Below, piece after piece: positions 3,350 to 16,193 of a stretch of 21,390 bases of DNA. The stretch comes from a virus. Made by a program: the position numbers and the translations under genes. Under the pieces are notes generated by a model. It had not been told where the DNA came from and searched no databases. It was given only the letters and a program-made list of their open reading frames with translations. The DNA is taken from the IMG/VR virus record IMGVR_UViG_3300013094_000330, positions 1 to 21,390 of that record. One strand, written 5' to 3'. The stretch's first letter is position 1; each line of letters opens with the position of its first letter.

Positions 3350-3376
3350 TGCTGCTAATCATAACAGGTGAACGAC

Positions 3377-4294
3377 ATGTCAGAGAACATTTATCAATTT
3401 AACGGATCGCTACTGGTAAGTGTAGCTGACGGTGCGCTGAACACCAACGCTGCTCCAATAGCTTTCCCTGGTAGAGGGTACACAAACTACGGTGCCCCGG
3501 TCCTACAGAATCAACTCTGGGACATGCAGCACTTTGCTGGTACAGTGGCGCCTACGCCTCTGTTACAGGGCGTGGTTTGGTATAACACCAACGCTAATGA
3601 GCTTCAAGTCTACACTGGCACCACGTGGTCGGCACTTTTCAAAGACAATCAAACCAACGCACCTGCGGCAAATCTAACATACGATCTTGGTACCAATAGC
3701 CTGCAGTTCAACAACCTTTATGCTGGTACTGTTCATGCTAACAACGTAGTGATATCTGGCAGCATTGTTGCGCCTGGTACCAACGTGATGCTGAACAATC
3801 AAACCAATCTGCCAAGCGTTAACAACACCTACAACCTTGGTAGCGCAAGCTATGTGTTCAACACAGTTTATGCTACTACATTCAACGGTACAGCAACTCA
3901 GGCTCTGTATGCTGACGTCGCAGAACGTTATGCGGCAGACAGCACCATGGAAGTTGGCGATGTTGTGTCATTGGGCGGCGATGCTGAGATTACCCTCACA
4001 ACCGCTGACTGCGATGTCTTTGTGTTTGGTGTGATTTCCGACAAGCCAGCATTCCAAATGAACAGCAAGGCAGGTACAGACGAAACGCATCCATATGTTG
4101 CCCTGCTAGGTCGCACACCATGCAAAGTGATCGGACGTTGTGGCAAGGGTGATAGGCTGGTTAGCAGCAGCACGCCTGGCGTTGCCAGAGCAGCAGACGG
4201 CGGTGAAGATCCGCATGCCATCATAGGACGTGCGTTGTCAGACAAAGATTATGACGATGTTGGACTAGTAGAGATAGTTATAGGACGAGCCTAA
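3377..4294 (+). CDS. Tail fibre-like protein with conserved C-terminal domain
   Basis: This is a 305-residue protein. I chose ATG 3377 (MSENIYQFNG) over the GTG at 3368 because AGG lies about eight bases before the ATG. Residues about 62-87 contain the VWYNT...ELQVYTGTTW segment common in phage fibre proteins. Two copies of a fibre repeat follow: NQTN...YDLGT...FNNLYAGTV (about 90-122) and NQTN...YNLGS...FNTVYATTFNG (about 139-174). The C-terminal domain (about 178-305) runs from YADVAERYAAD through GVISDKPAFQMNS, HPYVALLGRTPCKVIG and GDRLVSS to AIIGRALSD. This layout recalls fibre C-terminal domains that help trimer assembly, including self-cleaving Peptidase_G2-type domains, but no catalytic residue is identified here. 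Its likely role is host attachment or fibre assembly. It ends one base before the next gene. Confidence 0.75.
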   Translation: MSENIYQFNGSLLVSVADGALNTNAAPIAFPGRGYTNYGAPVLQNQLWDMQHFAGTVAPTPLLQGVVWYNTNANELQVYTGTTWSALFKDNQTNAPAANLTYDLGTNSLQFNNLYAGTVHANNVVISGSIVAPGTNVMLNNQTNLPSVNNTYNLGSASYVFNTVYATTFNGTATQALYADVAERYAADSTMEVGDVVSLGGDAEITLTTADCDVFVFGVISDKPAFQMNSKAGTDETHPYVALLGRTPCKVIGRCGKGDRLVSSSTPGVARAADGGEDPHAIIGRALSDKDYDDVGLVEIVIGRA

Positions 4295-4295
4295 G

Positions 4296-5216
4296 ATGAC
4301 TTATGCCAGTGGCGGCCTGATACAAGCCAACGACTACAATGGCTTCGTGGGCAACACGGCGCCAAGCTCTGCCTATGCCAGTTCGCTAGCAGCAACGGAT
4401 AAAGTAGCTGCGCTGATAGGCGTAGGTTACGGTGATCGAGGATACGGTCAAACCAGCACAAACCTCGCAGTTGTCAGCAGCGGTGTTGCTGTATCAGCAG
4501 GACAGTGGAACAATCTTATCAATGCCATGGGTACACTCAATACTCATCAGGGATCGGGACTGTCACCTGCTAACACTGTTACATCTGGATCGTCCATAGC
4601 TTATCAAGCTCGCATACCATCTAACATACCCACCCTAGATACAAATAGGTTGACTGCTAACATCACGCAGATGGCAGTGAGCAGCGTGCTTACTAGCAGC
4701 ATCAACACCACGTGGAGTGGCACGATAACTCACGTGTTCACTGTGGACTTTGGCACAGAAAATGCTGCTCGTTATTATTTCAACACTGGCGGACAGATAC
4801 GTTGGAGTGCTAGCAACACTGGAGGTAGCACCGGTAGCGCAGCAGCCTGGGCAGCATTGTTTACTGCCATGGGTACCATATCCATGGGAGCATACACCAC
4901 AACCTACACTGGTAGTGGTGGTACCATAACCAATAACATAGGCTATTACGGTCTCACGGGATCTTTGGTCCAGACATTCATACACTACGGTTCAGGACCC
5001 TATTACAGTGGCATCTATTACACGATCCAGGTCAGCCGCAGCAATTACACTGGAACCAACGGTGGCAATGGCAGCCTCATAAACTGCACGGTTACCATGC
5101 ATGACGGTGCGTATGGCAATGTTAACGGTACGACCAGCAGCTTCATTGACCAATACAAAGCTGTTGGTGTGCTAACCATAGCCAATCCAACATTCACCAC
5201 AGTCACGCCTCTCTGA
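4296..5216 (+). CDS. Gly/Ser/Thr-rich virion protein of marine T4-like phages
   Basis: This 306-residue protein starts one base after the preceding stop, so it is translationally coupled to the fibre gene. The N-terminal third has GYGQT (about 49-53) and SAGQWNNLINAM...THQG (about 67-86). This pairing of a GYGQ turn with a QWN-L-N segment is one I recognise from structural proteins of this phage group. The middle has ARYYFNTGGQIRWSAS (about 158-173). The rest is a run of short Thr/Ser/Gly/Tyr-rich strands with almost no charge, typical of exposed beta-structured tail proteins. There is no catalytic motif, signal peptide or membrane helix. It is probably a tail or fibre component; the exact position is unknown. 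Confidence 0.7.
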   Translation: MTYASGGLIQANDYNGFVGNTAPSSAYASSLAATDKVAALIGVGYGDRGYGQTSTNLAVVSSGVAVSAGQWNNLINAMGTLNTHQGSGLSPANTVTSGSSIAYQARIPSNIPTLDTNRLTANITQMAVSSVLTSSINTTWSGTITHVFTVDFGTENAARYYFNTGGQIRWSASNTGGSTGSAAAWAALFTAMGTISMGAYTTTYTGSGGTITNNIGYYGLTGSLVQTFIHYGSGPYYSGIYYTIQVSRSNYTGTNGGNGSLINCTVTMHDGAYGNVNGTTSSFIDQYKAVGVLTIANPTFTTVTPL

Positions 5217-5245: not shown

Positions 5246-5267
5246 CAATCGTATGACATAACGATTG
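5246..5267 (+). other. Hairpin immediately before a Shine-Dalgarno
   Basis: CAATCGT (5246-5252) pairs with ACGATTG (5261-5267) over seven base pairs around an eight-base loop. The right arm touches the GGAG (5267-5270) that serves the ATG at 5277. It could tune initiation or protect the 5' end of a processed message. A chance inverted repeat is equally possible. Confidence 0.3.
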
Positions 5268-5276
5268 GAGATCAGC

Positions 5277-5633
5277 ATGGATGAACGTTTAGAAAAAGCG
5301 TTGGAATTTTCAAAATACCGCATAGCGCTGTTCAACCAAAAAGAAGATCTCAAGCTCAAGGTCAACAACATGTTGATCCATGCTGAAAACGGTGGAATCT
5401 TTCGTATCACACAGGAGCTGATAAGCTTTGTCAAGCTGATGTCTGATAGGAATTTGGATACCATAATCCTCATAGACGAGAACGGAAATCCAATACAAGT
5501 CAGCGATCTGGAATCGTTCCTCGATGAGATCATCAGCAAGTACTGGGAAGCCACAAACTATTACCATACCGAATACACCAAATTACGCTCGGCTAGATCA
5601 GTTAAAAGCATACATGAGTTCGTAGATGATTGA
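5277..5633 (+). CDS. Small conserved T4-like phage protein, mostly helical
   Basis: This 118-residue protein starts at ATG 5277, served by GGAG at 5267-5270; an upstream TTG at 5265 would overlap that ribosome site and is less likely. It begins MDERLEKALEFSKYRIALFNQKEDLK, a charged amphipathic helix. It continues with ENGGIFRITQELISFVK, an IILIDENGNPI hairpin and a second acidic helix ending SFLDEIISKYWEATNYY. I recognise this as a protein recurring in marine T4-like phages next to fibre and glycosyltransferase-like genes, but I know of no proven function. There are no metal-binding or nucleotide-binding motifs. It overlaps the next gene by eight bases and so leads the long accessory polycistron. 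Confidence 0.7.
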   Translation: MDERLEKALEFSKYRIALFNQKEDLKLKVNNMLIHAENGGIFRITQELISFVKLMSDRNLDTIILIDENGNPIQVSDLESFLDEIISKYWEATNYYHTEYTKLRSARSVKSIHEFVDD

Positions 5634-6531
5634 GCATCCCGCAGGATTTCAATTGCCTCGCGGCTATGTTATCTACGCACACAACAACGCGAATATAGAT
5701 TATTCGGCGTTGGCAATTTGTAATGCGCTGTTGATCAAGAAACATCTCAAAGAAAATGCGGTAGCATTGATAACTGACAGTGACACTGCCAATTACATGG
5801 AGCATTTCTATAGCGGTACCATGTTGCGCAAGGCATTTGATCGCATCATCATGGATGACAAACCCGCTAACAATGCCACTCGTAGGTTCCACGACACCAG
5901 ATATACCACGTTCACTGATTCCTACAACAATACCAATCGTCCAAACGTTTATGAGCTATCACCATTTGAAGAAACCATATTGATCGATTCAGATTACCTC
6001 ATGTTGGACAATACCATGGATTTAGCATGGGGTAATCGCGAGGATTTCATGTGTAACCGCAAGACCATTGATCTGGATCACAAAGTCAATAATTTTGGGT
6101 TCAACAACAGGTTCAATGAGATGAGCATAAGCCTCTACTGGGCTACAGCGATATATTTCCGTAAGAACGAGAAAAGCAAGCTGATATTTGATCTCATGAA
6201 TTTCGTCAAGGAAAATTATGCCTATTACCAATACCTCTATCGATTCTCGCACAGCGGATATTTCCGCAACGACTATGCGCTGAGCATAGCCATACACATG
6301 GCCAACAACCTCATGGAATACGGTACTGTGTCGCCTCTGCCAGTTGATCACATCAGGTTTAGCATGGAAGATGATGAGCTACATCAGTTCAAGGATGGCA
6401 AATGCTTGATCACTAGCGAGCCCGTACAGGGAGATTTCAACCTGCATACGATAAGCACCAACATACACATGATGAACAAGCGTGCCATACTACGGCACAA
6501 GGATGAGATCATATCATATGCCATCGACTGA
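5626..6531 (+). CDS. GT8-like glycosyltransferase (GT-A fold), copy 1
   Basis: This 301-residue protein is clearly related to the next gene. It opens with RGYVIYAHNN...DYSALAICNALLIK (about 12-38), the first strand and helix of a GT-A nucleotide-sugar domain. The candidate metal-binding DxD is DSD at 121-123 in ETILIDSDYLM. It then has NREDFMCNRKTIDLDHKVNN and a run of aromatic residues (WATAIYFRKN, YAYYQYLYRF). The corresponding blocks in the neighbour are ETIKLDCDMLF, DFVICNRVIDYRSHTINN and TAFMYFKK. I infer transfer of a sugar from a nucleotide donor in the infected cell's cytoplasm; acceptor and sugar are unknown. Start ATG 5626 overlaps the previous gene by eight bases. Compared with its neighbour it lacks the EIPWGD motif, so it may have diverged in donor choice. 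Confidence 0.65.
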   Translation: MIEHPAGFQLPRGYVIYAHNNANIDYSALAICNALLIKKHLKENAVALITDSDTANYMEHFYSGTMLRKAFDRIIMDDKPANNATRRFHDTRYTTFTDSYNNTNRPNVYELSPFEETILIDSDYLMLDNTMDLAWGNREDFMCNRKTIDLDHKVNNFGFNNRFNEMSISLYWATAIYFRKNEKSKLIFDLMNFVKENYAYYQYLYRFSHSGYFRNDYALSIAIHMANNLMEYGTVSPLPVDHIRFSMEDDELHQFKDGKCLITSEPVQGDFNLHTISTNIHMMNKRAILRHKDEIISYAID

Positions 6532-7396
6532 TGTTAACACACGCCAGCGCGGATTCTTCACTTTCGCACAAAATACCGAGACCACTGATTATGTGCGTCT
6601 AGCATATGCCCTGGCACTGAGCCTAAAAGCCAGCCAGACATCTGTGCCATATCTAACCATAGGCGTCACTCCCGATACCACTGTGCCGGACGAGTACGCT
6701 TGGGCATTCGATAACATCATAGAGATACCCTGGGGCGATCATGCGTCAGATAGCATATGGAAGCTGGAGAATGAGTGGAAGGCGATCCACATGACTCCCT
6801 ATGACGAAACCATCAAGCTGGATTGCGACATGTTGTTCTTCAACGACATTGGTATATGGTGGGACACTCTCGCTCGACAGGATTTTGTTATATGTAACAG
6901 GGTCATAGATTACAGATCGCATACCATCAATAATGACTATTATCGCAAGACCTTCACCGAAAACACTTTGCCGGACGTGTATACTGCGTTCATGTATTTC
7001 AAGAAGACACCAGAAACCTTTGAGCTATTCAATCTCGTGAAATACATCTATTTCAACTGGCAAAGCATGTTTGGTTTGGCACTGAAGCCAGAGAATCGTC
7101 CTCGGTATCCCAGCACAGATGTGATATTTGCTATAGCACTCAAACTGCTAGATCTAGATCAGACCTCGTATACCGTGAAAGACATACCAACTTTCACGCA
7201 CATGAAGAGCCATCTGCAGGGTTGGGGCGACGAGGGTATCACGGAAGATTGGAACAAACACATCAGCATGTTCTTCAATCCTGCGTTGGAATGCAAGATA
7301 GGTAATTACCTACAATTCTTCCCTTTGCATTATCATGTTAAGGATTTCATTACAGATGAGATGATAGGATATTATGAGCGAGCACTCGGAAGATAA
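6518..7396 (+). CDS. GT8-like glycosyltransferase (GT-A fold), copy 2
   Basis: I place the start at ATG 6518 (MPSTDVNTRQRGF, 292 residues) rather than the in-frame GTG at 6482. AAGGATGAG lies just upstream and the overlap with the previous gene falls to 14 bases. Family features in order are GFFTFAQN...DYVRLAYALALSLK (about 12-37), IIEIPWGDHAS (about 67-77), PYDETIKLDCDMLF with the DxD-type DCD at 102-104, DFVICNRVIDYR, and PDVYTAFMYFKK. This is a full-length member of a family common in cyanophages and other marine myoviruses. It is soluble, without a signal peptide. It most likely acts with copy 1 on the same glycan or protein acceptor, but this is inferred only from adjacency and similarity. 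Confidence 0.7.
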   Translation: MPSTDVNTRQRGFFTFAQNTETTDYVRLAYALALSLKASQTSVPYLTIGVTPDTTVPDEYAWAFDNIIEIPWGDHASDSIWKLENEWKAIHMTPYDETIKLDCDMLFFNDIGIWWDTLARQDFVICNRVIDYRSHTINNDYYRKTFTENTLPDVYTAFMYFKKTPETFELFNLVKYIYFNWQSMFGLALKPENRPRYPSTDVIFAIALKLLDLDQTSYTVKDIPTFTHMKSHLQGWGDEGITEDWNKHISMFFNPALECKIGNYLQFFPLHYHVKDFITDEMIGYYERALGR

Positions 7397-7913
7397 GAAA
7401 GCCTGGGCGTGGTACGATATCAATACCATGGAATTGAAACATGTAGGCTTCGATCCAAATACCGATCACGGTCTTGATCTGGGTATAGTACCAATGCACT
7501 ATCAGTCAGCATTGGATGTGGCATCTGGTAAGAGCCGGCTGTTCGAATATGAACTGGTCAGAGAAGACGAAGATCTAATCATAAACTACAAGAAGAAGAA
7601 AGTAGCTTTCAAGAAATTCTGGCAACTGTTTGATCCCGAGAAATCTGGGTTTGGATCATACTTTGATTCAGTCAATGGAGAGCTGAGCCCGGTGTTGGTC
7701 AGAGACAGAGACGCACAGGGCTTTACTGTTGATGTCGTTGGTAAAGCCAAGAACATCATATTCTATATAACCATGCGCAATGATCCTACGTATCTGATCA
7801 AGAAGATAGAACTCTATCCATACGCAGCCGACATGGCTACCACTGTGGACATCAAGGTACCAGTAGATGTCACTGGCGATTACAGCATATATGTGAGGTA
7901 CGATGCAGCGTGA
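7374..7913 (+). CDS. Conserved phage protein of unknown function
   Basis: I do not recognise a function for this 179-residue soluble protein. ATG 7374 has AGG a few bases upstream (TAGGATATT) and overlaps the preceding glycosyltransferase gene by 23 bases, the largest overlap in the block. The N-terminal half is rich in charged and aromatic residues (AWAWYDINTMELKHVGFDP). A Lys-rich stretch follows (INYKKKKVAFKKFW, about 69-82). The C-terminal half alternates hydrophobic residues (FTVDVVGKAKNIIFYITMR, VDIKVPVDVTGDYSIYVRY), suggesting a small beta-sandwich. That could be a carbohydrate-binding or structural domain; this is an inference from the strand pattern alone. Overlaps on both sides tie its expression to the glycosyltransferase genes. 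Confidence 0.55.
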   Translation: MSEHSEDKKAWAWYDINTMELKHVGFDPNTDHGLDLGIVPMHYQSALDVASGKSRLFEYELVREDEDLIINYKKKKVAFKKFWQLFDPEKSGFGSYFDSVNGELSPVLVRDRDAQGFTVDVVGKAKNIIFYITMRNDPTYLIKKIELYPYAADMATTVDIKVPVDVTGDYSIYVRYDAA

Positions 7914-8808
7914 GATAAGTGAATTTGATTTCGTGTTCCTCAGCTATGATGAACCCAATGCAGAAGCGTTATACGCTGAGCTTCTCAACATAGTACCATG
8001 GGCCAAGCGAGTGCACGGTGTCAAGGGATTTGATGCAGCACACCGAGCCTGTGCCGACGCAGCCGACACTGATTTTTTCGTTACAGTAGACGGTGACAAT
8101 CGCATCTCAGATCAGTTCCTAAACGTCAAGCTAAACATCAGCGAAGGCCAGGATGATCACGCATGGACCTGGGCTGGTCGCAATCATGTGAATGGATTGA
8201 TCTACGGCAACGGAGGTCTCAAGCTTTGGAGCAAGCAGTTCGTTCGCAGCATGAACAGCCACGAGAACAGCAGCAGCGATGCTGGTAAGGTGGATTTCTG
8301 CTGGAATGCCAAGTACCACGAAGTGTTTGGTACATACAGCACCAGCATGATAAACAGCAGCCCGTACCAGGCCTGGCGAGCAGGATACCGCGAAGGCGTA
8401 AAGATGAGCCTCGAGAGCGGTAACAAGGTAGAACCAGCAGAGTTTTCTCGCAAGATATGGATCTACAACCTGCACAAGCTGCTGATATGGGCCAGTGTCG
8501 GAGCCGACGTAGAGCACGGTATATGGAGCATCTATGGTGCTAGACAGGGTGCGCATGACTGTAATCTCACAGATGATGATCACACCAACATCAGCAACTA
8601 CGATTGGTTCGCCGACAAATGGCAACAGGTAAAAGACAACGATCCATTGGCTGAATCAAGCATGCTAGGCGACAAGCTGAGGCAGGGGCTTGGCATTGAC
8701 CTGGCAGAGCTTGACGCTGAGCAGAGCAGGTTCTTCAAACGAGTCTACATCAATCCGCCGCGCCCGTTGGTTGGGTATGATCAGATCAGGCACTTGTCAG
8801 CAGTCTGA
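7903..8808 (+). CDS. Phage glycosyltransferase-like protein, family B copy 1
   Basis: This 301-residue protein starts at ATG 7903 with GAGG five bases upstream, overlapping the previous gene by 11 bases. It shows the family B order: FDFVFLSYDEPNA (about 8-20), AKRVHGVKGFDAAHRACADAA (about 34-54), FFVTVDGDN with DxD-type DGD at 63-65, NGLIYGNGGLKLW, and SPYQAWRAGYREGVKMS. The DGD after a hydrophobic strand, plus the first-strand and helix pattern, fit a GT-A nucleotide-sugar transferase. Family membership rests on comparing the four copies with each other. It is closest to the fourth copy (10946-11815), with which it shares VKGF, YGNGGLK, the YQAWRAGYREGVKMS block and a longer C-terminal extension. 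Donor and acceptor are unknown. Confidence 0.6.
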   Translation: MQREISEFDFVFLSYDEPNAEALYAELLNIVPWAKRVHGVKGFDAAHRACADAADTDFFVTVDGDNRISDQFLNVKLNISEGQDDHAWTWAGRNHVNGLIYGNGGLKLWSKQFVRSMNSHENSSSDAGKVDFCWNAKYHEVFGTYSTSMINSSPYQAWRAGYREGVKMSLESGNKVEPAEFSRKIWIYNLHKLLIWASVGADVEHGIWSIYGARQGAHDCNLTDDDHTNISNYDWFADKWQQVKDNDPLAESSMLGDKLRQGLGIDLAELDAEQSRFFKRVYINPPRPLVGYDQIRHLSAV

Positions 8809-10256
8809 TGTATGACATAGTCTTTGCCAGCAAACATGATAGGAACCGGACCGCATTTGAGCGATTCTCGATGTCCTATCCTGGGGCCAAATGGCTACCA
8901 AACGTCAAGTCATTGTCCAAGGCAGTTGCAGCAGCGTCACCGATGGTCAACACCAGCATGTACTGGTTGATCACAGATGATGTGCAGCTTGATTCAAACT
9001 TTGATCTGACCTGGAAAGCCGAGACCTGGGACAGACCTTATCCGCACGTATGGCCAACGGTGGATTCCAATGGCAATCCCAGCAGCGAGTTCGCAGGAGC
9101 TTATCTAATACCAAAGAGGTACAAGCCCAGTACCGATGAACTGGAAAACGGTTTCTTAAAATCAAGCAAAGAGATGCCGGGTCCTACTCAGTTGCTGTTG
9201 CCGTTTGACATATACTGGGCTAAGAATGATGCCGATATAACTCGGGCTTGTCTGTCAGCAAGATCGGCTTGTGTGACAGAGATGCATTGGATAGTGATGG
9301 ATGATGTTGATGTCTCGCCTGACATGGATTTCAATTGGCGTCCTCCGACCTGGGATAGGACTTATGCTCACGTATGCGCAGCCGCTGATGCTAGCGGCAA
9401 AATCTTAGAGCATAATACTGGGGTTTATCTGATACCAGGTGATTATCAAACCACTTCCGATGAACAGCAACAAGGCAGCCTGCATTCTCTGAAGCTGCTG
9501 GATACTGTGGCATCTGTGGTTAAACCCTATGACATATTCTTCATAAGCTATCGAGAGCCAGATGCTGCGGATAATTACCAGCTGCTGTTGGATAGGTTTC
9601 CCAGAGCACAACATGTCAGCGGTATAAAAGGCATACACAATGCCCACATGCGCTGTGCTGAGCTCAGCAATACCAAGATGTTTTGGACAGTTGATGCTGA
9701 CACCATAGTTGATTCTGGCTTTGCTTTTGATTATCGTCCCCCTGATTATGATCAGCAATACCTGCATCTGTGGCATAGCCGGAATCCTGTCAATGGGTTG
9801 AGCTATGGATGGGGAGCTATCAAGCTCTGGCCAACCAAGCTGGTGCGAGATTTTAGATCCAACTGGCTGGATTTCACTACCACCGTTGGCAACATCAAGA
9901 TAGTGTCAGATGTTATCGCAACCACCAAATACAACTGCGATGCGATGAGCACCTGGCGCAGCGGTTTCAGAGAAGCTGTCAAGCTTTGCCATAACATTTC
10001 AAACGGTGATCACATAGAAAGTCTTGAACGCCTGATGGTATGGTTGACCATAGAGAACCCAGTACCATGGGCCAACGATAGCACGCAAGGAGCCAGATCT
10101 GGGGTTGATTTCTATCTCAAATGCAGGAGAGAATCCAACATAGAAACCCTGGGTAACATAAACGACTTTGATTGGTTGATAGATAGATTCAATGCCCGTA
10201 AAGTTGATATGCCATTGCCCGCTAGGACAGATCTACTATCAGCACTGAGGTATTGA
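8808..10256 (+). CDS. Three-module glycosyltransferase-like fusion, family B copy 2
   Basis: This 482-residue protein starts at ATG 8808, sharing one base with the previous stop (TGATG). Module 1 (about 2-130) and module 2 (about 132-239) are N-terminal half-domains; module 3 (about 240-482) is full length. Module 3 has PYDIFFISYREPDA, VSGIKGIHNAHMRCAEL, FWTVDADTIVDSGFAFDY with DAD at 296-298, NGLSYGWGAIKLW and TWRSGFREAVKL. In modules 1 and 2 the equivalent strand reads ITDDV and VMDDV, so the first Asp of the DxD is Thr or Met. Both half-modules share DDV...WDR-Y-HV...YLIP...DE. The arrangement suggests one catalytic unit plus two non-catalytic or altered modules, perhaps for acceptor binding. 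Pieces of two genes joined by duplication is an alternative. Confidence 0.6.
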   Translation: MYDIVFASKHDRNRTAFERFSMSYPGAKWLPNVKSLSKAVAAASPMVNTSMYWLITDDVQLDSNFDLTWKAETWDRPYPHVWPTVDSNGNPSSEFAGAYLIPKRYKPSTDELENGFLKSSKEMPGPTQLLLPFDIYWAKNDADITRACLSARSACVTEMHWIVMDDVDVSPDMDFNWRPPTWDRTYAHVCAAADASGKILEHNTGVYLIPGDYQTTSDEQQQGSLHSLKLLDTVASVVKPYDIFFISYREPDAADNYQLLLDRFPRAQHVSGIKGIHNAHMRCAELSNTKMFWTVDADTIVDSGFAFDYRPPDYDQQYLHLWHSRNPVNGLSYGWGAIKLWPTKLVRDFRSNWLDFTTTVGNIKIVSDVIATTKYNCDAMSTWRSGFREAVKLCHNISNGDHIESLERLMVWLTIENPVPWANDSTQGARSGVDFYLKCRRESNIETLGNINDFDWLIDRFNARKVDMPLPARTDLLSALRY

Positions 10257-10259
10257 CGC

Positions 10260-10949
10260 ATGTATGACATAGTTTTCATCAGCTACGAAGAATCAAATGC
10301 CGAAGCAAATTGGCAGCTGTTGATATCTAGATTTCCCAATGCCAAGAGACTGCATGGGGTCAAGGGCATACACACTGCGCATGTCACTGCTGCTAACATG
10401 GTCGCTACTGACATGTTTTATGTAGTAGACGGCGATGCTGTAGTAGACAGTGATTTTGCTTTTGATTACAGCGTACCAGATCATCAGTTGGATCATGTTC
10501 ACGTGTTCCGAGCTAGGAATCCAATCAATGATCTAGTCTACGGTTACGGAGCAGTCAAGCTACTGCCAACCAATGACGTGCGCAGATTGGTTGATAGAGA
10601 TTTCAAACCGGACATGACCAGCAGCATCAATAGAAAATATAAAGTAGTGCACCAGCTTTCTAATGTTACAGCATTCAACACAGACGCATACAATACTTGG
10701 CGCAGCGCATTTCGAGAATGTGCCAAGCTGGCCAGCGGGGTGATAGACGGACAGGTCAATAACGAGACACAGCAGAGATTAGAGACCTGGTGCACGGTTG
10801 GATCTTCTCGTGAATACGGTTACTGGTCCCTACTCGGTGCGCAATCGGGACGCGAATTTGGTCTGAACAGCAGAGGCACTGATCAGCTGATGAGGATCAA
10901 CGATTGGAATTGGCTGCGAGAGAAATACCAGCAAAGCGGACTATCATGA
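10260..10949 (+). CDS. Phage glycosyltransferase-like protein, family B copy 3
   Basis: This 229-residue single-module protein starts at ATG 10260, with GAGG about ten bases upstream and a three-base gap after the previous gene. Motifs are MYDIVFISYEESNAEANW (1-18), AKRLHGVKGIHTAHVTAANM (about 28-47), FYVVDGDAVVDSDFAFDY with DGD at 57-59, NDLVYGYGAVKLLP, and NTWRSAFRECAKL. It is the compact form of the family and closest to module 3 of the preceding gene, with IHxAH, DF/GFAFDY and TWRS-FRE in common. A conserved NDWNWLREKYQ sits at the C-terminus, as NDFDWLIDRFN does in the neighbour. A GT-A type transferase is likely, with the substrate unknown. It overlaps the next gene by four bases (ATGA). 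Confidence 0.6.
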   Translation: MYDIVFISYEESNAEANWQLLISRFPNAKRLHGVKGIHTAHVTAANMVATDMFYVVDGDAVVDSDFAFDYSVPDHQLDHVHVFRARNPINDLVYGYGAVKLLPTNDVRRLVDRDFKPDMTSSINRKYKVVHQLSNVTAFNTDAYNTWRSAFRECAKLASGVIDGQVNNETQQRLETWCTVGSSREYGYWSLLGAQSGREFGLNSRGTDQLMRINDWNWLREKYQQSGLS

Positions 10950-11815
10950 CAGAATACTGGCCTAGGGATCTAGATATCTTCTACATCAGCTATGACGAGC
11001 CCAACAGAGAAGACAACTGGGCGAGGATAGCAGAGGAGATACCAAATGCCCAGAGAATGCATGGCGTCAAGGGCTTTGAAACCGCACACAAGGCCTGCGC
11101 AGAAGCCAGCACAACTGATAGATTCATGACCATAGATGGTGATAATTGGTTGCTGTTTCCTGCGTTAGATGTGATGTTAGATGACACTGGCATGGAAGAT
11201 GTGGTGTTCAGTTTCAAGAGCAAGAACGCCATAAATGGTCTTGAATACGGCAATGGCGGATTGAAATGCTGGCGCAAGGAAGTGTTGTTGAACAGCAGCA
11301 CGCATGAGAGCAGCGACAGCACAGACTTCTGCTGGGCGCTGCGATACTTCCAAGTTGATTTCATAGGTAGCATCAGCGTAAACAACATCACTCCATATCA
11401 GGCCTGGAGAGCAGGCTATCGAGAAGGGGTGAAGATGAGCTATCTCGATGGCACACCTATGCAGTCGGTGCGCAGCGATATCAGCAAATTATACCAGGGC
11501 AATCGCAGCAAGATGCACGTGTGGATGAGCGTGGGGCGAGATGTAGCTAACGGTGCGTGGGCAATGCTTGGAGCTAGACAGGGTTTCTACGAACTCTACA
11601 CCAATGCTGTAGCCAACACCATGATCAATGACTATGCTTGGTTTGACAACCATTGGAAGCGAGTAGCGCACTTGAATCTAGAAACTGCGCTACAGCAATA
11701 CAGCAGGCGTCTGCGCGATGAGCTGGGATTGTTCGTGCCCGAGCTTGATCAACTGACCAGCCAATGGTTCAAAGAAAACTACATGCATCCGCAGCGCAAG
11801 GGACTAATGCTGTGA
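10946..11815 (+). CDS. Phage glycosyltransferase-like protein, family B copy 4
   Basis: The start is ATG 10946, overlapping the previous stop as ATGA; an in-frame TTG at 10904 would add 14 residues inside the upstream gene and is rejected. The protein is 289 residues. Motifs are LDIFYISYDEPN (about 9-20), AQRMHGVKGFETAHKACAEA (about 35-54), FMTIDGDN with DGD at 64-66, NGLEYGNGGLKCW, and TPYQAWRAGYREGVKMS. It pairs with copy 1 rather than with the two genes between them: both have the VKGF form, the YGNGGLK block and a C-terminal extension of about 60 residues ending in FK(R/E)-Y-(N/H)P. A GT-A nucleotide-sugar transferase role is inferred. Confidence 0.6.
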   Translation: MTEYWPRDLDIFYISYDEPNREDNWARIAEEIPNAQRMHGVKGFETAHKACAEASTTDRFMTIDGDNWLLFPALDVMLDDTGMEDVVFSFKSKNAINGLEYGNGGLKCWRKEVLLNSSTHESSDSTDFCWALRYFQVDFIGSISVNNITPYQAWRAGYREGVKMSYLDGTPMQSVRSDISKLYQGNRSKMHVWMSVGRDVANGAWAMLGARQGFYELYTNAVANTMINDYAWFDNHWKRVAHLNLETALQQYSRRLRDELGLFVPELDQLTSQWFKENYMHPQRKGLML

Positions 11816-12537
11816 CGGCTCAGGTGACCAAAGAGGTTCAACAGCATGTTCATAACATGCAGAGATGGAGATCCACCGTTGCTGAACCAGAACAGTTCAT
11901 GGAGCGTTACATCGCAGTGTTAGATAACGCTGCCAGCGATGAGGTCAAATGGACTGACGCCTTTAGCTACGGTCAGCTCAACAGCAAGCTTTGGTTGATC
12001 GGACAGCTACAGACCCTCGACGTCGACCTAGGTAAGATCTGGATCATGTGTGGATGGATAGGCACGTTGGCCTATCTCATGATTCGCACAGATAACCAGC
12101 TAAGGTTTGATCACATACGCAGCTTTGATATCGATCCACATTGCCAACCACTAGCCGACACTCTGAATAGACCGGACGTGATGGATGGATGGAAGTTCAA
12201 GGCCAGTACCATGGATGTGAATGATCTCATCTATGACGACTGTTTTTGGAAAACTACTAAGTTCAACGGCGAGACTGAACTGATGTTTGGCAGCGCTGAC
12301 ACTATAATCAATACCAGCTGCGAACATTTAGATGATTTTGAAGCTTGGTTTAGCAAGATACCAGACGGCAAACTGGTTGTACTGCAGTGTAACAATAGTC
12401 CCGATCTAGACGGTCATGTCAACAACATGAACAGCCTCTACGAGCTGTCAAATCGAGCTAGATGCAGACGAGTATATTTCAAGGGCGCGTTGGACTGCGA
12501 CCTATACGAACGCTATATGTTAATAGGTAGGAAGTGA
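11812..12537 (+). CDS. Rossmann methyltransferase-like protein, copy 1
   Basis: I chose GTG 11812: it overlaps the previous stop as GTGA and has AAGGGA eight bases upstream. An in-frame ATG at 11764 lies deep in the previous gene without such a site. The protein is 241 residues. IWIMCGWIGTLAYLM carries CGWIGTL at 80-86 in place of the GxGxG loop of class I SAM-dependent methyltransferases. SFDIDPHC (about 104-111) supplies the acidic residue at the end of strand 2. ASTMDVND fits the adenine-side loop, and ADTIINTSCEHLDDFEAW the strand-4 region. The next gene repeats all these blocks. The family recurs in marine T4-like phages to my knowledge. The methyl acceptor is unknown; a sugar or virion protein is suggested only by context. 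Confidence 0.6.
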   Translation: MTAQVTKEVQQHVHNMQRWRSTVAEPEQFMERYIAVLDNAASDEVKWTDAFSYGQLNSKLWLIGQLQTLDVDLGKIWIMCGWIGTLAYLMIRTDNQLRFDHIRSFDIDPHCQPLADTLNRPDVMDGWKFKASTMDVNDLIYDDCFWKTTKFNGETELMFGSADTIINTSCEHLDDFEAWFSKIPDGKLVVLQCNNSPDLDGHVNNMNSLYELSNRARCRRVYFKGALDCDLYERYMLIGRK

Positions 12538-13394
12538 TGAAAGATTTGCCTGATCTGGATGTATTGATAAAACTAGAATCACACAGCGATGCCTTGAAGC
12601 TATTGGTCAAGTTATCACCAGCTGAGCTGGATGGATTAGCTGCCATCATGCGATGGCCGACACCAGTGTTGGCAATACTGCGAGATCATCCCAGTGCTCT
12701 GCGCGTGCTTTACAATGCCTGGGAACTGTTAGATGATAAAGCTGCGTTCCTCCGAGCCTATGCGTCAGTAGCTGCTCTTCCCCATGCTGATAGCGTGAAC
12801 ATACTAGATGCTTTCAGCCAAGGTCAGTTGGCCAGCAAGGCATGGTTATTAGACACTGTGCGAAGCCATGATCTGCGATTAGGCAATACTTGGATCCTGT
12901 GCGGTTGGATAGGAACTCTAGCCTATCTCATGTTACTGCGCAAGAATGAACTTGGCGTGACTGCTGTGCGTAGCTTTGACATAGATGATCGCTGTGCCGA
13001 CCTAGCTGATACCTTGAACAGATCTGCGGTCAAAGACAGGTGGATGTTCAAATCATTCACGCAGGATGTCAACATGCTTGACTATGATTCGTTTGAATGG
13101 AGCGTGTGGAGCAACATAAACAATCGCATGAGCTATCCAATAACTGACAGTGCTGATACCATCATCAATACCAGCTGTGATCACATGGGCAGCGATCGCA
13201 CATGGTGGGATAACATACAGCAAAACAAGTTGATAATCTTACAAAACAACAATTGGTTCGAGAATGAACAACACAACAACAGCGTGAATGATTTAGATGA
13301 GTTCAAGCGCATGTATCCCATGAAGGAATTGCTGTTTGCGGGCCAGCTCGACTGTACACTTTACACACGATTCATGCTGATAGGGCGTAAATGA
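12537..13394 (+). CDS. Rossmann methyltransferase-like protein, copy 2
   Basis: The start is ATG 12537, sharing one base with the previous stop (TGATG); a GTG at 12534 would sit on the AGGAAG and leave poor spacing. The protein is 285 residues. It is longer than copy 1 because of an extra N-terminal helical region of roughly 45 residues (KLLVKLSPAELDGLAAIMRW). The core repeats copy 1: LCGWIGTLAYLM (CGWIGTL at 122-128), VRSFDIDDRCADLADTLNRSAV, FTQDVN, ADTIINTSCDH, and a C-terminal CTLYTRFMLIGRK. Tandem duplication with divergence is the simplest origin. Having two copies side by side suggests different acceptors or a heterodimer. It overlaps the next gene by four bases. Confidence 0.6.
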   Translation: MKDLPDLDVLIKLESHSDALKLLVKLSPAELDGLAAIMRWPTPVLAILRDHPSALRVLYNAWELLDDKAAFLRAYASVAALPHADSVNILDAFSQGQLASKAWLLDTVRSHDLRLGNTWILCGWIGTLAYLMLLRKNELGVTAVRSFDIDDRCADLADTLNRSAVKDRWMFKSFTQDVNMLDYDSFEWSVWSNINNRMSYPITDSADTIINTSCDHMGSDRTWWDNIQQNKLIILQNNNWFENEQHNNSVNDLDEFKRMYPMKELLFAGQLDCTLYTRFMLIGRK

Positions 13395-13636
13395 TCATTG
13401 ACCTAGATTCCTTGCCACCAAGACAGCTACAAAAAGAAGCTGCTAGAGTTCTAGCAGCCGGTGATGGCTATGGCAATCACGATCTAGTCATGTTCAACAA
13501 GGCAGCGCATCACGACAGCTACGCTTGGTATAAGGCTGTTATATCTTGGTATATAGATCAACACGGTGGATTGCCCAGCAAGGTGGGCCCGGGCATAGCA
13601 GTCAAACTATTATTGGACACAGCTGATGATATATGA
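13391..13636 (+). CDS. Small helical protein of unknown function between methyltransferase and radical SAM genes
   Basis: This 81-residue protein starts at ATG 13391 in an ATGA overlap with the previous stop and overlaps the next gene by 11 bases. I do not recognise it. It begins MIIDLDSLPPRQLQKEAARVL, an amphipathic helix. The centre is rich in His and aromatic residues (AAHHDSYAWYKAVISWYIDQHGG, about 43-65). It ends in GPGIAVKLLLDTADDI. It is too short for an enzyme. A partner or substrate-handling role for the radical SAM enzyme that follows is possible, since such enzymes often have small partner proteins. There is no direct evidence: no Cys cluster or leader-core pattern is visible. Confidence 0.55.
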   Translation: MIIDLDSLPPRQLQKEAARVLAAGDGYGNHDLVMFNKAAHHDSYAWYKAVISWYIDQHGGLPSKVGPGIAVKLLLDTADDI

Positions 13637-14726
13637 ATATTCTAACATCACTACGGTTCATCTGGAGATAACCGACAAGTGCAATGCCAGCTGTCCCATG
13701 TGCGGCAGGAACAAGTTTGGTGGACCTGAGAATGAATACCTATCTCAGAGAGAACTGTCATTGGCGGATGTACAACGCATCATGTCCGAACCGTTCGTGC
13801 GCCAACTGAAAAAACTGTATATGTGCGGAAACTATGGTGATCCTATCGCAGCCAATGATACGCTGGAAGTCTACGAATGGCTGCGCAGCGTCAATCCTGA
13901 TATCAAGCTAGGCATACACACCAATGCCGGCGCACGAACACCTGCTTGGTGGGCTAGGCTTGGCAAGATACTGAGCCAAACAGGTGACTATGCCAAGTTT
14001 GGTCTGGATGGATTAGCTGATACCAATCACATCTATCGCCGAGGTACCAACTGGCAGAAGATCATGGAAAACCTAACGGCTTTCATAGCAGCTGGCGGCA
14101 TAGCACAGTGGGAGTTTATCGTTTTCAAACACAATGAGCATCAAGTTGAAGAAGCTCGCGCACTTAGCCAAAGCATGGGATTTGCGCAGTTCCGCACCAA
14201 GAAGACAGGCCGCTTCTTCAGCAATACCAAGCTACAGGGCAAGGATAGCCAAGAAGTTTGGAGCAGGAACGGCATGGTCGAGTATCACATTGAGAAGCCG
14301 GAGAATCCAGACTATCACAACGACAGCTTGAGCAAAGAACAGGCGTTGGTTGATCAATTTGGTAGCATGCAGAGCTACATAGATCAGACCTGCGTGCGAT
14401 GCAAGGTTTCAGAAGACAAGAGCCTGTACATCAGTTCAGAAGGTTTGGCTTTCCCCTGCTGCTGGACAGCCAATCAGCTTTATGTCTGGTATTGGCCCCA
14501 CAAGCAGAGCGAGATGTGGAGCCTCATAGACCATGACACTGACAACGTAAATGCTATCAAAAACCCATTGGATTCCATAGTAAATGGCAGCTATTTCAAG
14601 CGGATAGCTGATAGCTGGTCCAAGCCAAGCATCAACGATGGCAAATTGCGAGTATGTGCTAAAACCTGTGGTACAGGGTTCGATCAATTTGGTAGCCAAT
14701 TCACAGGGACCGTAAATAAACAATGA
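13626..14726 (+). CDS. Radical SAM enzyme with C-terminal Cys cluster region
   Basis: This 366-residue protein starts at ATG 13626, overlapping the previous gene by 11 bases. The N-terminus has VHLEITDKCNASCPMCGRNK, with the radical SAM CxxxCxxC motif at C19, C23 and C26 that binds the 4Fe-4S cluster cleaving S-adenosylmethionine. LYMCGNYGDP (about 64-73) replaces the usual GGEP. Further barrel strands are visible (GIHTNAGA, FGLDGL, EFIVFKHN). The C-terminal part has CVRCK (256, 259), FPCCW (278, 279) and RVCAKTC (344, 348), a SPASM-like set that could hold an auxiliary cluster. Such enzymes modify peptides, sugars or cofactors; the reaction here is unknown. It overlaps the next radical SAM gene by four bases. 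Confidence 0.8.
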   Translation: MIYEYSNITTVHLEITDKCNASCPMCGRNKFGGPENEYLSQRELSLADVQRIMSEPFVRQLKKLYMCGNYGDPIAANDTLEVYEWLRSVNPDIKLGIHTNAGARTPAWWARLGKILSQTGDYAKFGLDGLADTNHIYRRGTNWQKIMENLTAFIAAGGIAQWEFIVFKHNEHQVEEARALSQSMGFAQFRTKKTGRFFSNTKLQGKDSQEVWSRNGMVEYHIEKPENPDYHNDSLSKEQALVDQFGSMQSYIDQTCVRCKVSEDKSLYISSEGLAFPCCWTANQLYVWYWPHKQSEMWSLIDHDTDNVNAIKNPLDSIVNGSYFKRIADSWSKPSINDGKLRVCAKTCGTGFDQFGSQFTGTVNKQ

Positions 14727-16129
14727 CATCCAAACTCCCCAGCCCAACTTTCTGCGCCCTGCCTTGGGTGCATCTCAGCAGCCGCCCAGATGGGGCCATG
14801 CGTGTCTGCTGCACTGCCAATGCCAGCAGCGTGCAGGATCCGGACAGCACCAAGAAGAGCGGTGGCGGTCAGATAGGCGTGCTGCGCACAGCCGATGGCA
14901 CGCCAGCCAATCTCAACAACAGCACGTTGATGGAAGCATGGAACAATGATTACATGCGCAACGTGCGCAAGATGATGCTGCGAGGAGAGAAGCCTCCCAG
15001 CTGCCTCAAGTGCTACAAGGAAGAAGAAGCTGGTGTACAGAGCAAGCGCAACTGGGAGACTGCCTATTGGGTTGACCAGCTCGGGTTGGATGACATCATC
15101 GGCGATACTACAGAAGACGGTGCTGTCAGTCCAAGGATACGCTATCTTGATCTGAGATTGGGCAGCAAGTGCCAGCTGGCGTGCGTGATGTGCAGTCCTC
15201 ACGATTCCAGCGGTTGGGTCAAGGAATGGACAGAGATGTATCCCAGCATACAGAATACGCGCCTCAAGGAAAGCTGGAACTGGGCAGACAAGGGTAGGCA
15301 GCATGGCGCCAGCTACAACTGGCACATGAACAATCCAGAGTTTTGGAATCAGCTCTACGACCAGATACCACACATGAAGCAGCTGTATTTTGCCGGCGGA
15401 GAAAGCACCATCATCGAGGAGCATTACACGCTGCTTGAAGAAGTCATACGTCGCGGATATGCCAAGGATATCGAGCTGCGCTATAACAGCAATGCTGTTG
15501 AGCTTCCGCAGAGGTTGTTTGATATCTGGAGCCACTTCCGCCAGGTAAAGTTCCATTTCAGCGTGGACAGCTATGGCGACAAGAACGATTACATACGTTA
15601 TCCAAGCCAATGGGCTACGCTGCTGGCCAACATGCACAAGCTGGACTCTACTCCAGACAACGTGATAGTAACCACTGCTGTGACCGTGATGGCATTGAAC
15701 ATCTATTACATCCCTGACATGATCAAGTGGAAGCTCAGCGAGAACTTCAAGAAATTAAACACCTGGCCGGGCGGTGCTGGCATGATAAACTGGCATCTAG
15801 CCTATTGGCCACCACAGCTCAACGTCAAGGTATTGCCCAAGTGGGCCAAGAAGATGGTGCGAGAAAAGTTCGAAGAGTTCTTCTTATGGTTAGAAGATAA
15901 TTGGGAATCATGCACAGGTGCCACACAATCAGGCATCAGCAAGGAAGATTTCTTCAGGGCAGGATACGGAGTAAAGAGGTTGCGGGGATTGCTAGACTTC
16001 ATGGACAAAGAAGATTGGAGTGAACGCATGCCTGAATTGCGCGAGTGGGTACAGCTGTTAGATCAGCGCAGAGGACTTAGTTTCAAGGACACTTTCCCAG
16101 AGATGTCCAGATTATTAGACGAGGAGTAA
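14723..16129 (+). CDS. Twitch-domain radical SAM protein
   Basis: This 468-residue protein starts at ATG 14723 in an ATGA overlap. An N-terminal Cys region comes first: FCALPWVHL (C11), MRVCCTAN (C29, C30) and SCLKCYKEEE (C94, C97). This is characteristic of twitch-type radical SAM proteins, where the auxiliary-cluster segment precedes the barrel. Then comes YLDLRLGSKCQLACVMCSPHD with CxxxCxxC at C150, C154 and C157. LYFAGGESTI follows, with GGES at 225-228 binding the SAM amino group. Strands LRYNSNA and FHFSVDSYG follow, then a helical C-terminus. It is a different subfamily from the gene before it, so this is a pairing and not a duplication. The substrate is unknown. Codons look somewhat richer in AGC, CAG and AAG than in neighbours, which may hint at separate acquisition; I have not measured it. 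Confidence 0.8.
   Translation: MTSKLPSPTFCALPWVHLSSRPDGAMRVCCTANASSVQDPDSTKKSGGGQIGVLRTADGTPANLNNSTLMEAWNNDYMRNVRKMMLRGEKPPSCLKCYKEEEAGVQSKRNWETAYWVDQLGLDDIIGDTTEDGAVSPRIRYLDLRLGSKCQLACVMCSPHDSSGWVKEWTEMYPSIQNTRLKESWNWADKGRQHGASYNWHMNNPEFWNQLYDQIPHMKQLYFAGGESTIIEEHYTLLEEVIRRGYAKDIELRYNSNAVELPQRLFDIWSHFRQVKFHFSVDSYGDKNDYIRYPSQWATLLANMHKLDSTPDNVIVTTAVTVMALNIYYIPDMIKWKLSENFKKLNTWPGGAGMINWHLAYWPPQLNVKVLPKWAKKMVREKFEEFFLWLEDNWESCTGATQSGISKEDFFRAGYGVKRLRGLLDFMDKEDWSERMPELREWVQLLDQRRGLSFKDTFPEMSRLLDEE
16121..16126 (+). promoter_or_regulatory. Strong Shine-Dalgarno GAGGAG for the long form of the next gene
   Basis: GAGGAG lies seven bases before ATG 16134, inside the last codons of the radical SAM gene. 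It would let read-through message make a version of the following protein with 20 extra residues. It competes with the AGGGA at 16181-16185 that serves ATG 16194. Confidence 0.4.
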
Positions 16130-16156
16130 AAACATGCATTGGGGAATGCCTGGTAC

Positions 16157-16164
16157 CATAAATA
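16157..16164 (+). promoter_or_regulatory. T4-type late promoter-like box CATAAATA
   Basis: CATAAATA ends 30 bases before ATG 16194. That spacing resembles the 28 bases at the fibre gene (3342-3349). A transcript from here would start near 16170, carry the AGGGA at 16181-16185 and exclude the ATG at 16134. Confidence 0.55.
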
Positions 16165-16193
16165 GTAGTGTTAGCTCAACAGGGATCACCGTA

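Follow-up and report, generated by a model that had tools for sequence, protein, structure and literature searches.

Why would a T4-like phage carry, next to its fibre genes, an uninterrupted row of genes for predicted sugar transfer, methylation and radical chemistry, and on which molecule would such enzymes act? We addressed this question in a 21,390-nucleotide stretch of viral DNA, hereafter the window. Clusters of radical SAM and sugar-transferase genes have been described from T4-like phages from 2010 onwards, their function undemonstrated (PMC2853527; PMC5332604; PMC7029224); the combined pathway, which the initial annotation had presented as its own inference, is therefore only partly new. 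That annotation had also spoken of marine T4-like phages. The T4-type assignment is borne out by a gp23-type capsid protein (PF07068) in 12 of the 15 related contigs tested, the window itself being a 21 kb fragment, while "marine" found no support.

Positions 5626-16129 hold twelve consecutive, overlapping plus-strand ORFs in the ORF list of the window (Table 1): two GT8-like proteins, four family-B GT-A-fold paralogues, two class I methyltransferases, two radical SAM enzymes and two unassigned proteins. ORFs, profiles and fold models all agree with this island as first annotated. The sole gap, of three bases (10257-10259), is as described, and every other junction overlaps. The overlaps, originally given as 1 to 23 bases, were roughly right: they span 1-52 bases with the longest starts, and in-frame ATGs further downstream (6518 and 10946) would shorten two overlaps, one to 14 bases and the other to 4. 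All twelve genes are under purifying selection, with dN/dS mostly <0.2 where dS is unsaturated. Because of this selection and of synteny in ~250 loci, the block is beyond chance. We found no clear membrane helix in the twelve block proteins and no sugar-nucleotide synthesis genes in the window.

Table 1. Coordinates of the genes and the promoter-like box considered here, with the basis of each call
Feature	Position	Strand	Basis or remark
fib3, fibre-like structural protein	3368..4294	+	PHROG tail fibre/virion-structural matches (phrog_19602, E 7e-11)
fib4, fibre-like protein, proposed acceptor	4296..5216	+	composition, position
F5265, small conserved protein	5265..5633	+	alignment; probable start ATG 5277
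GT8a, GT8-like glycosyltransferase	5626..6531	+	profile to glycogenin, E 2e-5; 26% identity to GT8b
GT8b, GT8-like glycosyltransferase	6482..7396	+	profile, DxD; probable start ATG 6518
U179 (gene X)	7374..7913	+	between GT8b and first family-B gene; fast-evolving
B1	7903..8808	+	best conserved family-B paralogue; 73-86% identity in most close relatives
B2	8808..10256	+	C-terminal full domain and two N-terminal partial repeats
B3	10260..10949	+	family-B protein chosen for modelling; DGD at residues 57-59
B4	10904..11815	+	41% identical to B1; probable start ATG 10946
MT1, class I SAM methyltransferase	11764..12537	+	tandem paralogue of MT2, 46.5% identity; start uncertain
MT2, class I SAM methyltransferase with helical N-terminal domain	12534..13394	+	structure model
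U81, conserved protein of 81 aa	13391..13636	+	alignment, 16 invariant residues
RS1, radical SAM with C-terminal SPASM-like cysteines	13626..14726	+	PF04055, 36.7 bits, over cut-off
RS2, twitch-domain radical SAM	14723..16129	+	NCBIfam NF033640, 424 bits (cut-off 170), E 5e-127
CATAAATA, T4-late-promoter-like box	16157..16164	+	33 nt 5' of in-frame ATG (near 16194) of next gene

The two proteins that open the block, GT8a and GT8b, are predicted members of the glycogenin/LgtC-type GT8 family. A GT8 profile of 48 members reached glycogenin at E values of 2e-5 to 4e-4 over residues 5-118 only, and both aspartates of its DxD motif (D114 and D116) are kept in at least 90% of the 48 sequences. The relation is distant, since single GT8-like sequences gave no match to Pfam GT8. 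Family B, in turn, matched no family over cut-off in Pfam, PHROGs or NCBIfam, and no PDB sequence significantly. The AlphaFold model of B3 (pLDDT 93) adopts a nucleotide-diphospho-sugar transferase Rossmann-like fold, with GtrB, WrtF and ArnC as its top Foldseek matches (E about 1e-4 to 1e-3). At Z scores of ~9-11 over 130-140 residues, IspD-type cytidylyltransferases tie with glycosyltransferases; the model thus assigns family B to the GT-A fold, which does not by itself separate sugar transferases from nucleotidyltransferases. D57 and D59 of B3 are both invariant in the family alignment, and the DxD...YGxG pattern is kept in 467 of 507 homologues. Residues 241-461 of B2 are 43% identical to B3, and residues 1-102 are 29% identical. 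We found at least 590 stretches matching family B among IMG/VR contigs and none in 50,697 GenBank phage records; hence, the family is widespread in phages yet nearly undescribed.

The MT2 model (pLDDT 93) aligns with NodS (Z 17.1, rmsd 2.9, 173 residues), which indicates a seven-strand Rossmann methyltransferase fold. A single-protein scan of IMG/VR with MT2 gave no pattern match, and methyltransferase homologues were gathered there by an alignment-based scan. In the methyltransferase alignment GW at 124-125 and D149/D151 are present in at least 90% of sequences, and the SAM-binding loop is an atypical GxGxG. U81, for which no family match was found, occurs in 49 of 75 methyltransferase-anchored loci, usually between the methyltransferase and the first radical SAM gene. 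The CxxxCxxC motif is invariant in the RS1 alignment and present in 973 of 973 radical SAM homologues of at least 300 aa. RS2 carries its SPASM/twitch domain at the N-terminus and scores 23.1 bits against PF04055, below cut-off. Judged by motif conservation and dN/dS, the island enzymes look intact.

Although the twelve ORFs stand, the conserved unit does not begin at 5626, where the island had been taken to start. It starts further 5', and both the ORF at 5265-5633, whose last 8 bases lie within the first GT8 gene, and the fibre gene at 4296-5216 belong to it. fib4 consists of 26% Ser+Thr, 13% Gly and 5% charged residues, and family searches of the Pfam/PHROG type returned no match of its own; we label it fibre-like from its composition, its position and its neighbour fib3, which precedes it in relatives as it does in the window. 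Relatives of fib4 are 23-83% identical to the window copy. F5265 always lies between fib4 and the GT8 pair, and a gene at the X position is found in nearly all relatives; U179 itself has no family match and no PDB match.

The twelve-gene order is kept in ~18 close IMG/VR relatives, and the core recurs in hundreds of contigs. Approached from four separate anchors, the families co-occur beside fibre genes, as the initial annotation had expected, and they do not occur independently of one another in relatives. Radical SAM genes lie within five genes in 93-96% of 67-69 methyltransferase- or GT-anchored loci. Searching IMG/VR with a fib4 DNA motif gave 33 loci that reach 4.5 kb or more downstream; GT8 is present in 33/33, F5265 as the next gene in 32/33, family B in 32/33 and radical SAM in 23/33. 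Four of these loci are minimal (GT8-GT8-(X)-B-B) and lack radical SAM genes. Among 69 GT8 pairs in B- or methyltransferase-anchored loci, F5265 is directly upstream in 57, fib4 is at -2 in 47 and B is at +2 in 67, and F5265 adjoins all but one of the pairs that have any upstream gene. These counts define the unit as fib4-F5265-GT8-GT8-X-GT-A plus a variable tailoring set, whose genes differ in number and order (1 to 13 radical SAM genes per locus). Relatives also carry genes for a carbamoyltransferase, a DegT aminotransferase, a UDP-sugar dehydrogenase, an NTP transferase, a cupin related to mannose-6-phosphate isomerase, a GatZ-like aldolase and a shikimate-dehydrogenase-like protein, all predicted functions fitting the making and tailoring of sugars. 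Fe-S carrier genes (PF01521) are present in 8 of 9 related contigs of ~200 kb or more, consistent with the demand of Fe-S enzymes.

The unit appears to be co-transcribed with the fibre genes. No internal promoter had been noted, and our scans concur: sigma-70-like promoters are at chance level (25 matches versus 23.4 +/- 6.5 by chance), and [CT]ATAAATA is absent from inside the block, in the window and in the relatives scanned. A terminator scan also gave chance level only, and the overall count of T4 late boxes allowing one mismatch was not above chance. The exact box CATAAATA lies at the equivalent place in eight close relatives (L005, L006, L007, L009, L011, L012, L014 and L021) and is the only exact box of its type in each; the copy at 16157 likely marks the 3' boundary of the unit. 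A second exact late box, at 2588, is not claimed, being absent in the one relative that extends there.

From gene content, folds, motif conservation, purifying selection and fixed fibre-gene synteny, all established here, we infer with a probability of roughly 55% that the block glycosylates and tailors the phage's own fibre in the cytoplasm; the fibre as acceptor, the order of the steps and the radical SAM substrate are the inferred parts. The block would make up the 3' half of a T4-like phage's fibre operon, with fib4 and soluble enzymes made from one gene string and decoration taking place in the cytoplasm of the host, while the virion assembles or earlier. The glycogenin-like GT8 pair would start a glycan on the fibre, B1-B4 would then lengthen or branch it, and MT1 and MT2 would methylate it. 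RS1 and RS2 could carry out carbon-centred chemistry on the glycan or its carrier peptide, with U81 as a possible accessory. The fibre, F5265, the GT8 pair, X and the first B gene would form a fixed core, and the methyltransferases and radical SAM enzymes an exchangeable tailoring set, by which each lineage would be able to alter its outer chemistry. A multi-step decoration tied to fibre genes had been proposed from the start, with the choice between virion and host surface left open. The co-occurrence upholds the tie, and we favour a virion target because of the fixed fib4 adjacency, the lack of membrane proteins and the lack of flippase, polymerase and ligase genes.

The 33/33 fib4-anchored loci tie glycosyltransferase genes to a virion protein gene, although this adjacency could alternatively reflect the general synteny of T4-like phages. 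The main rival takes the place of the block by the fibre genes to reflect a shared host-recognition region and, unlikely in our estimate, holds that a host-surface glycan (LPS core, O-chain or capsule precursor) is modified in the cytoplasm during infection, which would prevent superinfection or help progeny to leave. LPS synthesis commonly involves GT8 members, and in bacteria family-B homologues have GT2, epimerase and aminotransferase genes nearby. GT8 and radical SAM cassettes reported in pelagimyophage host-recognition regions have, moreover, been read as modifying host LPS (PMC7029224). Against this stands the near absence of membrane proteins: a strong hydrophobic segment occurs in 21 of 2,443 island genes (three of them methyltransferases) versus 63 of the 371 genes beside B homologues of bacteria, which leaves no flippase, polymerase, ligase or GtrA/B-type step. 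The adjacency to one fibre gene is fixed, and the unit seems to be co-transcribed with fibre genes, whereas superinfection-exclusion genes are usually expressed early. An O-antigen or serotype-conversion cassette of the gtrABC type was rejected, as the membrane protein GtrA and the GtrB/GtrC parts are absent from the block and membrane proteins make up <1% of relatives' island genes.

The substrates of radical SAM/SPASM enzymes are often peptides and not glycans, and the SPASM-like cysteines of RS1, the twitch/SPASM domain of RS2 (such domains are frequent in peptide maturases) and the usual position of U81 beside RS1 would suit a peptide target. RS1 and RS2 would then work with U81, as leader-binding partner or precursor, to make RiPP-like cross-links or changes on the fibre or a small peptide, sugar transfer being a second, partly independent decoration. 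We regard this as improbable: RS1 also matches a sugar-nucleoside enzyme, cytosylglucuronate decarboxylase (7vob, E 2e-8), and sugar genes lie beside radical SAM genes in 93-96% of loci. U81 is conserved over its full length and has no variable core, and its role as a RiPP precursor was judged unlikely on that ground. It is very improbable that the products are methylated, edited sugars on phage DNA bases, made against restriction as by virus-encoded DNA glycosyltransferases. Radical SAM enzymes can serve phage DNA hypermodification, and ThyX, P-loop kinase and nucleotidyltransferase genes follow the block (16597-18105); however, in relatives (L038, L068) ThyX and the following genes lie away from the island or on the other strand while fib4 stays, GT8 falls outside the DNA-glycosyltransferase families, and the extensions in relatives add glycan chemistry and no base chemistry. 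Equally hard to credit is a loose set of auxiliary metabolic genes at a recombination hot spot by the fibres, sharing no pathway. The varying number and order of tailoring genes and the exchange of an entire radical SAM module among Campylobacter phages (PMC2853527) fit such a set, but the core order is fixed over the large divergence of fib4 and co-occurrence in fib4-anchored loci is near-obligate.

Known systems share parts of the unit. A nucleotide search with the block gave no match in GenBank phages, and tblastn of the B, methyltransferase, GT8 and fib4 proteins found none in named phages, so the full module was not found in any named phage of that collection. The virulent, T4-related Campylobacter phages CP220 and CPt10 (Firehammervirus) have 11-12 radical SAM genes, for whose modules the authors suggested a metabolic benefit to the host (PMC2853527). 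They carry a module of five radical SAM genes and an amidinotransferase near baseplate genes, CP220 also encodes two nucleotide-diphospho-sugar transferase-fold proteins, and RS1-type enzymes match CP220 at E 4e-35, but profiles of GT8, family B, the methyltransferases, F5265 and fib4 had no match in the 24.7 kb covered. Pelagibacter phage Mosig EXVC030M has, by its tail-fibre genes, a MoaA-like radical SAM gene matching the RS1 profile (7e-32), a methyltransferase matching the MT profile (9e-24), a carbamoyltransferase, aminotransferases and oxygenases; GT8, family B, F5265 and fib4 were not found in the 36 kb examined. The T4-like TARA_ERS488813_N000010 (183 kb) resembles the large relatives seen here in its array of 12 radical SAM genes and its Fe-S A-type carrier, and was described in terms of Fe-S metabolism, the link to fibre and glycosyltransferase genes not being drawn (PMC5332604). 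In chlorovirus PBCV-1, GT-A glycosyltransferases and SAM methyltransferases (A064R, A061L, A111/114R) make and methylate a virion glycan (PMC9614988). Structural alignment matches the B3 model to 2p72, the capsid glycosyltransferase domain of PBCV-1 (Z 9.8, rmsd 3.8, 137 residues), in fold only and at ~14% identity; PBCV-1 is a eukaryotic virus with an N-linked capsid glycan and no radical SAM enzyme. Among tailed phages, mycobacteriophages have capsid and tail-tube subunits that bear glycans (Freeman 2023, cited by PMC12619734); other proteins are involved there, and the text covered mentions no radical SAM tailoring.

A more specific proposal, on balance doubtful, is that fib4 is the dedicated acceptor of a phage O-glycan. 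As in glycogenin, this glycan may start on a tyrosine, the invariant one of GYGQ in fib4; a new glycosyltransferase family would lengthen it, and radical SAM enzymes would then edit it. If true, no virion decoration shaped by radical chemistry would have been known before this one, and the arrays of radical SAM genes reported from T4-like phages since 2010 would gain a function. That this row follows the fib4 gene in many uncultured phages suggests that phages with the fib4 island make an elaborate coating on their own fibres. More than 15 years of reports on radical SAM clusters in T4-like phages have brought only vague metabolic suggestions, and the fibre-linked island offers a lead on their role. 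Linking them to a fixed fibre-glycosyltransferase unit narrows the question to one that can be tested on a single protein, fib4, and also bears on how phages alter the chemistry of the part that contacts the host.

The twelve-gene modification island described in the initial annotation was confirmed: in this single virus record of 21,390 bases, twelve consecutive plus-strand ORFs overlap one another apart from one 3-base gap. The first two encode GT8-like proteins, whose 48-homologue profile matches glycogenin (E 2e-5) over the N-terminal part only. The four family-B paralogues (B1-B4) belong to no Pfam, PHROGs or NCBIfam family (B1-B3 in the NCBIfam scan). An AlphaFold model of B3 (pLDDT 93) has a nucleotide-diphospho-sugar transferase fold; its best Foldseek matches are the glycosyltransferases GtrB, WrtF and ArnC (E about 1e-4 to 1e-3), and in a second structural comparison sugar transferases and nucleotidyltransferases tied at Z 9-11. 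Both aspartates of the family-B DGD motif (D57 and D59) are invariant, and B2 is larger than the other members, with two additional partial repeats. MT1 and MT2 are tandem paralogues; the MT2 model (pLDDT 93, Foldseek) shows the class I methyltransferase fold preceded by a helical N-terminal domain (NodS, Z 17.1). RS1 is a radical SAM (rSAM) enzyme with SPASM-like cysteines, and RS2 a twitch-domain one (NF033640, 424 bits). The other two ORFs, U179 and U81, gave no family match.

Coordinates of the island and neighbouring features in the window
Feature	Position	Remark
Large structural protein	ends at 2592	upstream of island; virion-structural PHROG match
ORF	2739-3335	among structural genes upstream of island
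fib3	3368-4294	fibre-like; upstream of island
fib4	4296-5216	upstream of island
F5265	5265-5633	small; 3' end overlaps first GT8 gene by 8 bases
Island	5626-16129	twelve ORFs, + strand
U143	16134-16565	annotated coordinates; downstream of island
ThyX, kinase, nucleotidyltransferase		downstream of island
Kinase/cytidylyltransferase-like pair	17243-18105	near ThyX; the kinase and nucleotidyltransferase of the row above
d19397	19397-20506	no Pfam match

A first scan of IMG/VR with RS1 as query returned 80 loci. About 18 close relatives keep the order F5265-GT8-GT8-U179-B-B-B-B-MT-MT-U81-RS1-RS2 to their contig ends, a single gene being absent in some; roughly 60 more distant loci retain B and rSAM, usually with MT. 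Between the window and four relatives, dN/dS is mostly <0.2 at unsaturated dS; the island genes are therefore under purifying selection. T4-type gp23 was found in 12 of 15 related contigs tested. The largest related contig (L021, 518,643 bases) carries gp23 of this type and 22 radical SAM matches and, if correctly assembled, is a very large T4-like phage; a 46 kb fragment has 17 matches. In four loci (L071, L077, L129 and L189), runs of as many as five consecutive radical SAM genes occur, with totals reaching 13 per locus, suggesting that tailoring enzymes duplicated and diverged within one island. Of the nine related contigs at least about 200 kb long, eight have Fe-S carrier genes, which would be useful to a phage with many radical SAM enzymes.

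The first scan depended on RS1 being present, and we therefore used three more anchors. Among B-anchored loci, 64/69 usable ones have an rSAM gene within five genes; among MT-anchored loci, B occurs in 63/67 and rSAM in 64/67. Radical SAM homologues make up 683 of the 2,562 genes called in these two sets. The strongest test is to anchor on the neighbouring gene fib4. A degenerate DNA motif for R-Y-F-F-N-A-G-G matched at least 120 stretches; among the matches listed, 33 carried fib4 and extended at least 4.5 kb beyond it. GT8 genes are present in every one of these 33 loci, F5265 directly follows fib4 in 32, and B is found in 32; within eight genes, rSAM is present in 23 and MT in 3. The counts do not represent independent events, since the loci share descent and sample only the beginning of a larger set. 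In four of the 33, the minimal string fib4-F5265-GT8-GT8-(X)-B-B is followed by unrelated opposite-strand genes. We therefore regard fibre, F5265, GT8 pair, X (U179) and B as a fixed unit; rSAM and MT genes are often added to it but are exchangeable. Identity of fib4 to the window copy is only 23-83%, and the tailoring part is reshuffled whereas the core is not. The co-occurrence of these enzyme families holds from the RS1, B, MT and fib4 anchors.

Several side observations concern other genes and contigs. The APS-kinase-like P-loop kinase downstream of the island (PF01583, E 1e-14) is followed by a small cytidylyltransferase-like protein; together the two could provide an activated donor of sulfate or nucleotide. 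Judged by eye, d19397 may be a glycosyltransferase with a different fold; its homologues lie inside rSAM/GT islands of relatives (17/79 B-anchored and 17/75 MT-anchored loci). A further group of contigs (L085-L097, L112, L117), assigned for the most part to Bdellovibrionia, Bdellovibrionales or Bacteriovoracaceae bins, has homologues of B, rSAM and MT together, with genes for GT2, epimerases and aminotransferases around them; these may be chromosomal counterparts, or possibly donors or hosts. Actinobacteria such as Streptomyces, Micromonospora, Salinispora and Actinosynnema carry family-B homologues (L098-L105, L108, L115) with no rSAM neighbours among the genes called. Strings of fib3-fib4-F5265-GT8-GT8, or similar islands, also occur on contigs in MAGs of Rickettsiales, Pelagibacter, Neomarinimicrobiota and others (L083, L084, L106, L109, L111, L113, L114, L116, L119); these contigs have the look of phage DNA that was binned with bacterial genomes.

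Where might this chemistry take place? O-antigen or capsule conversion normally requires membrane steps. No clear membrane helix was seen in the island proteins of the window. Such helices occur in 21 of 2,443 island genes of relatives (three of them methyltransferases), compared with 63 of 371 for the genes next to B homologues in bacteria. A target that is soluble and cytoplasmic, for instance a fibre in assembly, therefore fits better. The multi-step decoration of a virion or host-surface molecule first proposed is supported in part and narrowed towards the fibre; fib4 as acceptor, the order of steps and the rSAM substrate we infer. In such a scheme, GT8 enzymes would start a glycan on fib4, B enzymes would extend it, MT1 and MT2 would methylate, and RS1 and RS2 would edit the sugar or the peptide that carries it. 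The fib4 protein is rich in Ser/Thr/Gly and almost uncharged, and the tyrosine in its GYGQ motif is invariant. Glycogenin uses tyrosine as its site, and for that reason alone this residue is a candidate glycosylation site. Extra genes in other relatives (carbamoyltransferase, aminotransferase, UDP-sugar dehydrogenase, NTP transferase, cupin, aldolase and shikimate-dehydrogenase-like) fit a role in the making and tailoring of sugars.

Neither the window nor the relatives scanned have a [CT]ATAAATA box within the block, and sigma-70-like boxes are no more frequent than expected by chance. CATAAATA lies 23-35 bases 3' of the annotated start of U143 both in the window and in eight close relatives; it is the sole such box in each of the eight, and in the window an in-frame ATG follows it after about 30 bases. 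By sequence, this fits a T4-style late promoter that would open the next unit, with the island read through from the fibre genes. The annotated U143 ATG is probably upstream of its promoter, and translation likely begins instead at the in-frame ATG that comes shortly after 16190.

Radical SAM arrays have precedents: Campylobacter phages CP220 and CPt10 have 11-12 such genes and an exchangeable module that encodes an amidinotransferase, to which CP220 adds two proteins with a sugar-transferase fold (PMC2853527), and a T4-like marine genome has an Fe-S carrier and 12 rSAM genes (PMC5332604). In pelagimyophages, cassettes of GT8 and rSAM genes lie in the host-recognition region and were interpreted as host LPS modification (PMC7029224). 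Genes for rSAM, carbamoyltransferase, aminotransferase and methyltransferase adjoin fibres in Mosig; the stretch examined there lacks the GT8/B/fib4 core. Chlorovirus PBCV-1 is an established case of virion glycans made by viral GTs together with methyltransferases (PMC9614988), and work cited in PMC12619734 established glycans on the capsid and tail tube of mycobacteriophages. New here are the fixed fibre-F5265-GT8-GT8-X-B unit, an undescribed GT-A-like family (B) with hundreds of members in uncultured phages and without a match among 50,697 records of named phages, and the link between rSAM arrays and the fibre-GT unit. The old question of what phage radical SAM arrays do becomes directly testable on one protein.
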